DNA from: Desulfocarbo indianensis
GTDB taxonomy: Bacteria > Desulfobacterota > Desulfarculia > Desulfarculales > Desulfarculaceae
NCBI GenBank assembly: GCA_001184205.1
Contig: LBMP01000007.1
Coordinates: 186,001-250,000, forward strand
Direction: 5' to 3'
DNA: 64,000 bases
Part shown: in pieces, positions 3,167 through 49,387 of the stretch
Position numbering within the stretch: position 1 is the stretch's first letter
How the letters are laid out: the number at the start of each line of letters is the position of its first letter
The notes under the pieces: model-generated
The model's input: only the letters and a program-made list of their open reading frames with translations
What the model was told of the DNA's origin: nothing
Database searches by the model: none
Made by a program: the position numbers and the translations under genes

Positions 3167-3579
3167 TTCCCGGCCTGGTCGGCCGCCACCTCGCCGGCGC
3201 GCGCGAAGCTCAGGTGGGCCCAGAAGCAGGCCAGGACGAACCCCGCCGGCCGCCACCTCGCCGGCGCGCGGGAAGGCTCGGGCCGGCAGCGCCCGCAGCC
3301 GGCGTCACTCCAGCGGCCCAGGGGTTCGACAAGCTTTCCCTAAAGAATACGCGGTGATCGGCGCGGTCAACTCGCCGGCGGTGCACAGCTGACTAACCAC
3401 TGCCTGGCCGGCGACACAGGGCGCGAAAGCGCCTTGCCCCTGGCTTCAACCCCGCTTCGCGCGCGGCCTTCCGCGCATCCGGCCTCGTCAAACCGCACTT
3501 TCCATGATAAATAGCTTGACCGACTAAGTCGCCGCTTTCTTCGCGGCCCTGACCCCGCACACGCCTTTTGGATGTACAC
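3167..3579. other. Intergenic region with a 23-bp direct repeat
   Basis: No gene is supported in these 413 bp. A near-perfect GC-rich direct repeat (GGCCGCCACCTCGCCGGCGC and onward) occurs at about 3180-3202 and 3248-3270, 68 bp apart. Short reading frames through it lack ribosome binding sites and protein-like composition. A weak TTGACC box occurs near 3520, but no good -10 follows. Confidence 0.5.
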
Positions 3580-4485
3580 ATGACCAAGTCCTCTTTACTG
3601 GCCAAAGCCGCCCATCTGCGCGGCTGCGCCACCATTTCGCTCATGGCCCTGAACACCATTTGGTGGACCGCCCTGCTGTTCTGCGTGACCCTGTATAAGG
3701 CGGTGGTTCCCATCGGCGGCTGGCGGCGAGCGGCCGGCCGGGGCATGGTCAACCTGGCCAACGCCTGGATCACCTGCAACAACCTGATACTGGCCTTGGT
3801 CAATGAGGTGGAGTGGCGCTTTGTGCTTCCCCGCGGCCTGGACCGCTGGCGGAATTACCTGGTCATTGCCAATCATCAGTCCTGGACCGACATCCTGGCC
3901 TTGCAGCGGGTGTTTTTGCGGCGGATTCCGTTCTTGCGGTTTTTCCTGAAACAAAACCTGATCTGGGTGCCGCTCCTGGGGCCGGCCTGGTGGGCGCTGG
4001 ACTTTCCCTTTGTCAAAGGCAGGTCCAAGCGGGCGGTCAAGGCCGGAGGCCGGAGCGAGGCCGCCAACCTGGATTTCGTTGCCAAGGCCTGCGCCAAATA
4101 CCGGGAGATACCGGTCTCCATCATGAATTTCGTGGAAGGCACCCGCTTCACCAGGCAGAAGCACCAGCGGCAGAACTCGGGCTATGACAATTTGCTCAAG
4201 CCCAAGGCCGGCGGCGTGACCATGGTGCTGAGCGCCATGCCGGACTGCCTGCACAGCATTCTGGACGTCACCATCGTCTATCCCGGCGGGGCCGGGACTT
4301 TCTGGGAGTTCATCTGCTCCCGCCGGCGGCAGGTGGTGGTGCATGTTGAAGAGAAGCAACTGGCCGGCCTGATCACCGACGAGCGCCTGCGTGATGAAGG
4401 CTTCCGCTCCCACGTGGAGGGGTTCCTCAACGACATGTGGCGGGCCAAGGACGGCAAGTTGCGGCGGCTGGCCGGAGCCTTCTAA
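3580..4485 (+). CDS. PlsC-like lysophospholipid acyltransferase family protein
   Basis: The 301-residue protein has the acyltransferase motif I NHQSWTD (His/Asp catalytic pair) near residue 97 and motif III EGTRFT near residue 186. An N-terminal hydrophobic segment suggests membrane attachment. This arrangement and length fit the YihG/LCLAT-like branch of 1-acyl-glycerol-3-phosphate acyltransferases, which esterify lysophospholipids at the inner membrane; the exact acceptor is not determined. The ATG at 3580 is preferred, with an in-frame TTG four codons upstream. Neither has a strong ribosome binding site. It stands alone, flanked by long non-coding stretches. Confidence 0.85.
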   Translation: MTKSSLLAKAAHLRGCATISLMALNTIWWTALLFCVTLYKAVVPIGGWRRAAGRGMVNLANAWITCNNLILALVNEVEWRFVLPRGLDRWRNYLVIANHQSWTDILALQRVFLRRIPFLRFFLKQNLIWVPLLGPAWWALDFPFVKGRSKRAVKAGGRSEAANLDFVAKACAKYREIPVSIMNFVEGTRFTRQKHQRQNSGYDNLLKPKAGGVTMVLSAMPDCLHSILDVTIVYPGGAGTFWEFICSRRRQVVVHVEEKQLAGLITDERLRDEGFRSHVEGFLNDMWRAKDGKLRRLAGAF

Positions 4486-4716
4486 GGCTTGCCCTGCGAC
4501 CGCGGGCGATCCGGCGCGCGGGCCTGCCGATCTCTCCTAAAGAGCCAGCCCATCCCCTTCCGCGCGATTCCCTCGCGGAGCCCCCGCCAGGTCAGCCCGG
4601 CGGGCGGCATGCCATAGTTCGCCTAAGAAGACCTTTCAGACCTTGGCGGCGAAACGGCCGGCGGTTGCCATTCAGCCGGATTTGCCTTTAAAATGCGAAG
4701 CAACAGGCCCGTCCTC
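4486..4716. other. Non-coding spacer
   Basis: No convincing gene, RNA or promoter is visible between the acyltransferase gene and the hairpin array that begins at 4717. Confidence 0.4.
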
Positions 4717-4866
4717 TGGCAAGGTGTTGAAAAACACCTTGCCAGGCGGGCCATGGACGGCCCGCCAATTTGCGCTGTTTTGAAAAAACAAGCAAATTGC
4801 CCAACTTGGCAAAACCTAAGCTTTTGCCAAGTTGGGATTGAAAAAGGCCAGGAGGGCCTTTTTCAA
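4717..4866. repeat. Array of five contiguous perfect hairpins
   Basis: Five stem-loops follow one another with essentially no spacing. They are 4717-4744 (12-bp stem, GAAA loop), 4745-4766 (8 bp), 4766-4799 (8-bp outer stem with a GTTT/AAAC inner stem), 4800-4836 (15 bp, 7-nt loop) and 4838-4866 (12 bp, 5-nt loop). The ends share AGGTGTTGAAAAA on the left and its near-inverse TTTTTCAACAACCT on the right, as in a miniature inverted-repeat element. The array lies just upstream of a secreted-protein gene. It could be a non-autonomous repeat, a structured leader RNA, or both. Confidence 0.7.
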
Positions 4867-4911
4867 CAACCTGCTAGCCCGTCAAATCCTGGTAGCACTG
4901 GAGAAAACCGC

Positions 4912-5475
4912 ATGAAGACCGCTAGATGCTTGTTGCCGCTGTGGGCGCTGGCGCTGGTTATGTGCTTAGCCGTTCCGGCCCTGGCCGACGCCCCCAAACC
5001 CTGTTCACTCATCAGCAAGGACGAGGCCGCCGCCATCCTGGGCGAGCCGGTCAAGGACGCCCGCCCGGGAAAGGTGGTGGGCATGGCTAATGGCGAGAAA
5101 TGCGAATACTTCACGGCGGCGCCTTTGGCCAAGAGGGGCGGCGTGGGAGTGGTGAGCCTGGTCATCTACAGCCAGGAATCCCTTAAGGACGGCCTGTTCG
5201 CCACGCCCAAGGATTTCTACCACCGCCTGCGCAAGGCCGGCCAGAACGCCGGCTCCGCGTTTCAAGACGTGGCGGGCATGGGCGACGAGGCCTACTGGAA
5301 TTCCAAGAGCAACACCCTGCACATCCTGGCCAAGGGAGTTTACTTGCAGCTCAAGATCAACGACCTCAAGCAATTAAAGGCCCCCAGCATGACCGAGTTG
5401 CAGAAGATGATCTCGGAGCACAGACGCCAGCTCTGCGAACAGGCGGCCAAGCAGCATATCCTCCCCAAGCTGTGA
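4912..5475 (+). CDS. Exported protein of unknown function
   Basis: The 187-residue product starts with a clear signal peptide (MKTARCLLPLWALALVMCLAVPALA, probable cleavage after ALA). The mature part (DAPKPCSLISKDEAAAILGEPVKDARPG...CEYFTA) resembles small exported proteins of the DUF3558 or 'CSLIT' type, with two cysteines that may form a disulfide. No catalytic motif is seen. ATG 4912 is chosen because the signal peptide begins there; a longer frame upstream only reads through the hairpin array. A periplasmic location is inferred. Confidence 0.7.
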   Translation: MKTARCLLPLWALALVMCLAVPALADAPKPCSLISKDEAAAILGEPVKDARPGKVVGMANGEKCEYFTAAPLAKRGGVGVVSLVIYSQESLKDGLFATPKDFYHRLRKAGQNAGSAFQDVAGMGDEAYWNSKSNTLHILAKGVYLQLKINDLKQLKAPSMTELQKMISEHRRQLCEQAAKQHILPKL

Positions 5476-49349: not shown

Positions 49350-49387
49350 CGTCTTGGCGGATATGGCTGGCCATATCCGCCAAGACG
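49350..49387. terminator. Perfect 18-bp palindrome after rubredoxin
   Basis: CGTCTTGGCGGATATGGC and its exact complement flank a 2-nt centre (17 bp with a 4-nt loop if folded). It lies between the rubredoxin and roo genes, without a T-run. It may terminate the upstream operon or serve as an operator. Confidence 0.55.

Follow-up and report, generated by a model that had tools for sequence, protein, structure and literature searches.

Ordinary MITEs, i.e. dispersed non-autonomous mobile elements, keep their ends and lose their middle. The sequence recognised by CsrA and RsmA has been reported as ANGGAN (PMC3791407) and, in CsrB, as CAGGA(U/A/C)G, and SELEX gave RUACARGGAUGU, mostly in six-base loops and mostly on ligands of four base pairs or fewer (PMC7652899). 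A four-base loop bound CsrA weakly (PMC3791407), and CsrA motifs usually come in pairs (PMC4333381). Outside Gammaproteobacteria, the TwoAYGGAY RNA, which consists of two hairpins with AYGGAY loops, was proposed to bind CsrA (PMC4333381). In the literature on CsrA together with MITEs, we found no element described like the one reported here.

We analysed a stretch of 64,000 nucleotides from Desulfocarbo indianensis (the window), in which five adjoining hairpins had been noticed upstream of an exported-protein gene. The features assigned to this locus are listed below, with positions numbered along the window.

4665..4694, + strand: promoter-like TTGCCA-18-TAAAAT, sigma-70-like (10/12), a pattern match only, with 0.1 expected by shuffling.
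4716..4719, no strand: left target-site duplication CTGG, a decayed CTAG; intact pairs are seen in sister copies L005, L003 and L006.
4720..4873, + strand (the strand with GGA in the loops): the whole non-autonomous mobile element of about 154 bp, delimited by the boundaries of own-genome copies and by YTAR-type duplications.
4720..4734, + strand: left terminal inverted repeat CAAGGTGTTGAAAAA; taken with the target site, it matches the end of insertion sequence (IS) L075 at 21/30 positions.
4716-4728/4733-4745, + strand: hairpin 1 (H1), 13 bp, perfect, formed on the terminal repeat and with a loop that is not conserved.
4745-4752/4759-4766, + strand: hairpin 2 (H2), 8 bp, perfect, loop C-ATGGAC-G (CANGGANG, CsrA-type).
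4766-4773/4792-4799, + strand: hairpin 3 (H3), an 8-bp outer stem and a short imperfect inner stem.
4800-4814/4822-4836, + strand: hairpin 4 (H4), 15 bp, perfect, with a variable loop lacking GGA that serves as internal control.
4838-4849/4855-4866, + strand: hairpin 5 (H5), 12 bp, perfect, loop C-AGGAG-G, CsrA-type.
4859..4873, - strand: right terminal inverted repeat, reverse complement CAGGTTGTTGAAAAA; taken with the target site, it matches the left end of the IS5/IS1182-like L075 at 24/30 positions.
4874..4877, no strand: right target-site duplication CTAG.
4912..5475, + strand: downstream gene for an exported protein of 187 aa without a Pfam family.

The chain at 4716-4866 is real and contiguous except for base 4837; neighbouring hairpins share bases 4745 and 4766. 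The folding energy of the + strand is -98.7 kcal/mol, as compared to a mean of -56.7 for shuffled sequences (z = -9.96, none of 200 shuffles as good), in agreement with the preliminary description, which considered such a chain very unlikely by chance. The - strand folds equally well (z = -9.5). The same description called the hairpins perfect, which holds for H1, H2, H4 and H5 but not for H3, on account of its inner stem. The near-inverted ends that it mentioned were recovered at 4716-4734 and 4859-4877 (19 nt, 84%), and the 3' arm of H5 is part of the right terminal repeat. Elsewhere in the window, at 49350-49387, lies a perfect 18-bp inverted repeat with a 2-bp spacer, which is outside the five-hairpin family.

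The suggestion that the hairpins form a miniature element, which the absence of other copies was to refute, was borne out by dispersed copies, terminal inverted repeats, target-site duplications and matching IS ends. When the own genome (5.1 Mb, 333 contigs) was searched at the DNA level, the matches comprised, besides the 100% self-match, about 11 copies that were 69-93% alike over most or part of the element length, plus shorter pieces. The terminal sequence TTTTTCAACARCCTGCTA occurred 13 times (with up to 2 mismatches) in this genome, as compared to 0 for the reversed control. With a covariance model (R1), for which 150 candidates were scored per genome, at least 14 copies were counted in the own genome, and at least 85 in G002, 35 in G003, 18 in G005, 19 in G006, 142 in G007, 100 in G009, 111 in G011 and 20 in G020.

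By DNA search, copies were also found in 9 further genomes, all from the same family or order. None was found by DNA search in the 8 genomes of genus g4, nor by the covariance model in the four of them tested with 150 candidates each. The host of the window is a Desulfarculaceae MAG; in a sample of 395 genomes of the phylum, the covariance model matched 15 genomes from five families. The element is also present in four other Desulfobacterota families and, outside this phylum, in Gammaproteobacteria, Mariprofundus and Magnetococcales. The named records that contained the exact H2 pattern were mostly Desulfarculus MAGs and Dethiosulfatarculus sandiegensis, but also included Rhodanobacter, Tahibacter, Lysobacterales, Chromatiales, Ectothiorhodospiraceae, Mariprofundus erugo and Magnetococcales. 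Nearly all distant loci with this pattern show the five-hairpin chain, with the exception of L246, which is unlike a true copy, and Mariprofundus holds about 50 copies. Spread by phages or plasmids was considered and set aside, since viral contigs, phages and plasmids gave no match at the sensitivity used.

Several copies depart from the common form. L169 and L212, in a G005-type genome, belong to a tandem array of at least 4 element units 119 bp apart and are not single copies. In L116 and L115 (G002) and in L158 (G009), an extra hairpin stands inside the H2 loop next to the GGA. L120, L122 and L124 (G007) represent a subfamily whose ends are TACCAAGTTGCGATC and whose H3 is short (GGGCGCGTAAGCGCCC); it has many near-identical, apparently recent copies.

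Three types of ends were analysed; other families show further ones. The type found in the window (a) has ends CAGG.TGTTGAAAAA with YTAR-like 4-bp duplications (p < 1e-4, some entries of this test being counted on both strands), such as CTAG/CTAG in L005 and TTAG/TTAG in L003 and L006. A 7-bp direct repeat, GCCCGTC (4707-4713 and 4877-4883), was rejected as the target duplication of the window copy because sister copies show the 4-bp YTAR type. Type (b) has GAG(R)STGCTGCACGG ends with 5-bp duplications, perfect in 17/20 cases (permutation p < 5e-5). Type (c), from Dethiosulfatarculus, has CAGGCTGTTGACAAA ends, and in G002 four copies of this type (L047, L056, L108 and L109) are bracketed by duplicates of an entire terminator hairpin (about 30 bp). 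The IS L088 is also flanked by a duplicated terminator hairpin, and these duplicates around the G002 copies and around L088 amount to a very long, structured target duplication.

Dethiosulfatarculus contains one IS for each analysed end type, namely L075, L084 (with a 345-aa transposase) and L088. Among NCBIfam profiles, their transposases matched IS5_4 (for L084 above cut-off) and, below cut-off, IS1182; among Pfam families, they matched DUF772 and DDE_Tnp_1. No hairpin core was found inside these three IS. An origin of the element as deletion of one IS was rejected for this reason, and the ends thus follow the transposase whereas the core stays. In addition, the differing ends and duplication lengths between subfamilies point to different transposases. 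A PF05598 transposase of the same genome was discarded as the driver, since none was found in the window's own genome (G000), in G003 or in G011; the copies there are therefore relics or use another source. Overall, the copies are dispersed and non-coding, they have terminal inverted repeats and target-site duplications, and in Dethiosulfatarculus there are parental IS with the same ends. The five hairpins are thus, with hardly any doubt, one copy of a dispersed non-autonomous mobile element (MITE).

This result bears on the suggestion that the hairpins form a folded leader RNA. The element ends 38 bp before the exported-protein gene, whose start at 4912 is preceded by GGAG, and the upstream neighbour (3568-4485) encodes a YihG-family 1-acylglycerol-3-phosphate acyltransferase. 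The window copy is in the GGA orientation, and since the promoter-like site lies directly upstream it could sit in the 5' leader of the gene; provided that this candidate promoter is used, the mRNA leader would carry both GGA hairpins. A leader position is therefore possible, and the distance to the gene and the promoter-like site are the observations that would speak for a fixed 5' leader regulator of this gene, such as a riboswitch or an attenuator. Yet about 14 copies occupy unrelated loci in the own genome, and no copy is present upstream of the gene's homologues in G013 and G005. An intrinsic leader is refuted by these observations, and also by the occurrence of other copies in either orientation to genes, so that a fixed regulator is hardly credible. 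The window copy was most likely acquired upstream of the gene, as suggested by the element-free homologues, and a co-opted leader role is possible.

Gene calls made within this analysis were used to place 98 copies with respect to flanking genes: 20 were sense-tandem, 30 antisense-tandem, 26 convergent, 18 divergent and 4 inside genes. Thus, 94/98 copies are intergenic and their orientation is unbiased.

In copies from different genera the order H1-H2-H3-H4-H5 is kept, with very different stems. Across 22 diverged cores, 93% of cells were paired and 29/41 pairs had changed on both sides; the covariation score of these cores was 0.451, as compared to 0.162 when shuffled (0/500) and to at most 0.147 with a slid partner. 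The inner hairpin chain is kept across phyla while the ends switch between IS types, unlike in a usual MITE. Stems are nearly all Watson-Crick, with 90 G-U against 60 A-C pairs (p = 0.018). This excess is barely above that of flanking hairpins (70:54), and a strand-specific RNA is for this reason not clearly favoured.

The loops behave differently from one hairpin to another. Among distinct arms, GGA was present in the loop of H5 in 66/70, of H2 in 18/18 and of H4 in 1/58. The pattern CA(N)GGA(N)G was matched by 38/50 distinct H2 and 84/103 distinct H5 (the model by which the H2 and H5 loop sets were collected favours GGA). In the 50 distinct H2, position counts were C47, A43, N (T28, G8, A8, C6), G45, G45, A44, N and G47; both N positions are free. 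A kissing interaction between the loops of H2 and H5 through CCAUGG was rejected because of this free variation. When loci were picked by the H2 sequence alone, GGA was found in 32/49 distinct H5 as compared to 2/67 middle hairpins. Palindrome correction during replication could yield paired stem changes without selection, but not loop conservation, and the H2 and H5 loops are very probably under selection.

If the chain acted as an insulator of transcription or mRNA stability, either as a terminator or as a barrier to RNases, no loop-specific protein would be needed, and insertions would be made harmless or useful. The intergenic position of 94/98 copies, the location of Dethiosulfatarculus copies at terminators and the terminator-like score of H4 with its T-rich run on the - strand are in line with this role. 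What it leaves unexplained is the specific conservation of the H2 and H5 loops as opposed to the variable H4 loops, and U tracts are missing from most hairpins; we consider it improbable.

The main rival is a plain MITE whose hairpins and loops are required in cis for transposition or replication, in the form of single-stranded or cruciform DNA; on this reading, the GGA loops would bind a transposition factor rather than CsrA. Mobility is proven, insertion orientation is random, the stems are almost purely Watson-Crick, and both strands fold equally well. IS1272 is a member of the IS1182 family. Since IS1272 targets inverted repeats (PMC5678879), and the G002 copies sit between duplicated terminator hairpins, the IS1182-type transposase group does deal with hairpin DNA. 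Against this, the same two loops are kept despite different ends, duplication lengths and transposases, the IS with matching ends lack the core and no GGA hairpin was seen at the ends of the three Dethiosulfatarculus IS, and CANGGANG, with its two freely varying N positions, is the CsrA motif. We therefore regard a plain MITE as a serious alternative that is nonetheless unlikely.

Since H2 and H5 keep the CsrA-recognised loop while their stems change freely, the element may be a mobile CsrA-binding module. As in RNAs of the CsrB/RsmZ type, the consensus CANGGANG has its GGA in hairpin loops; each copy of the element has two such loops. No Rfam family matched the window at gathering score; two copies resembled RsmW weakly on their + strand, below threshold (E 0.04 and 0.17), and TwoAYGGAY (RF01731) gave none up to E = 10. 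The H3-H5 part of the element at L049:1547-1646 had a sub-threshold match to Rfam TD-2 (E = 0.011).

Both the own genome and most relatives that bear the element have a csrA gene. Within the phylum sample, csrA was found in 14/15 element-bearing genomes as compared to 191/395 (48%) overall, counts that ignore ancestry, and in distant hosts of the element it was found in 10/10. It was not found in the 8 genomes of genus g4, where no element was found either; this joint absence may be one event. Many csrA-positive genomes have no element, and csrA would therefore be necessary at most. Conversely, csrA was not detected in element-bearing G009 (97% complete, about 100 copies) and G015 (71% complete), which speaks against a CsrA-based explanation. 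The 12-15 bp stems and four-base loops are likewise not ideal for CsrA, and caution is called for by the unbiased orientation to flanking genes (20 sense-tandem as compared to 30 antisense-tandem) and by the few G-U pairs with their weak strand bias. CsrA as partner of the GGA loops has an even or slightly better chance.

The explanation that we propose is a MITE with a mobile pair of putative CsrA sites, active when transcribed; taken as a whole, we find it evenly balanced between right and wrong. DDE transposases from the IS5/IS1182 group would move the element in trans; H1 and the 3' arm of H5 would be the terminal repeats, which change with the transposase used, while the inner chain H2-H5 is retained across phyla. 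H2 and H5 would present CA(N)GGA(N)G, the CsrA/RsmA recognition element, on stable, freely varying stems. When the GGA strand is transcribed, in the window probably as 5' leader of the gene for the exported protein, the hairpin pair in the RNA should hold CsrA and might act in cis on the transcript. With tens to hundreds of copies, the element could also act in trans as a dispersed CsrA sink, although titration of this kind in vivo is only tentatively proposed. Transcription of the element, CsrA binding and any regulatory effect are what we infer from these features. In a broader and still speculative version, a selfish family present in several proteobacterial classes and in Desulfobacterota would spread CsrA-type hairpin pairs, swap IS ends, rewire or titrate the CsrA network and need csrA to persist.

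If the GGA hairpins bind CsrA, binding sites of a global regulator travel on transposons, which would provide a route for the rapid creation or dilution of CsrA regulons. The element would then also be a candidate for the CsrA antagonist RNAs that are missing outside Gammaproteobacteria. Regardless of CsrA, a core that is kept while ends are exchanged is a clear case for testing the purpose of a MITE interior.

With the MITEs of IS5/IS1182-type IS, the element shares short length, lack of autonomy, IS-shared terminal inverted repeats, target-site duplications and dispersed intergenic copies; it differs in its inner chain, conserved across phyla, and in its ends, which change between IS types. 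REP/BIME with RAYT transposases are likewise high-copy, intergenic palindromic repeats, whereas our element has target-site duplications and DDE-type IS ends. The MRSC-65-2 motif (PMC11109978) is also very abundant and covarying, occurs in several phyla with inconsistent orientation and was read as a selfish structured element; compared by its description, it is a single long stem with UYCCGG repeats and no GGA-loop chain. TwoAYGGAY (RF01731) has two hairpins with AYGGAY loops in a different architecture, whereas the five-hairpin element is mobile and multicopy and gave no Rfam match to it at E = 10. Finally, the sRNAs CsrB/C and RsmX/Y/Z/W are hairpin chains with CA(N)GGA(N)G loops, and a weak Rfam similarity to RsmW was seen. 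Unlike these RNAs, each copy of the element has just two GGA loops, a promoter of its own was not seen and no Rfam match reached the gathering score; in place of one to three fixed genes, there are many copies, which are mobile.
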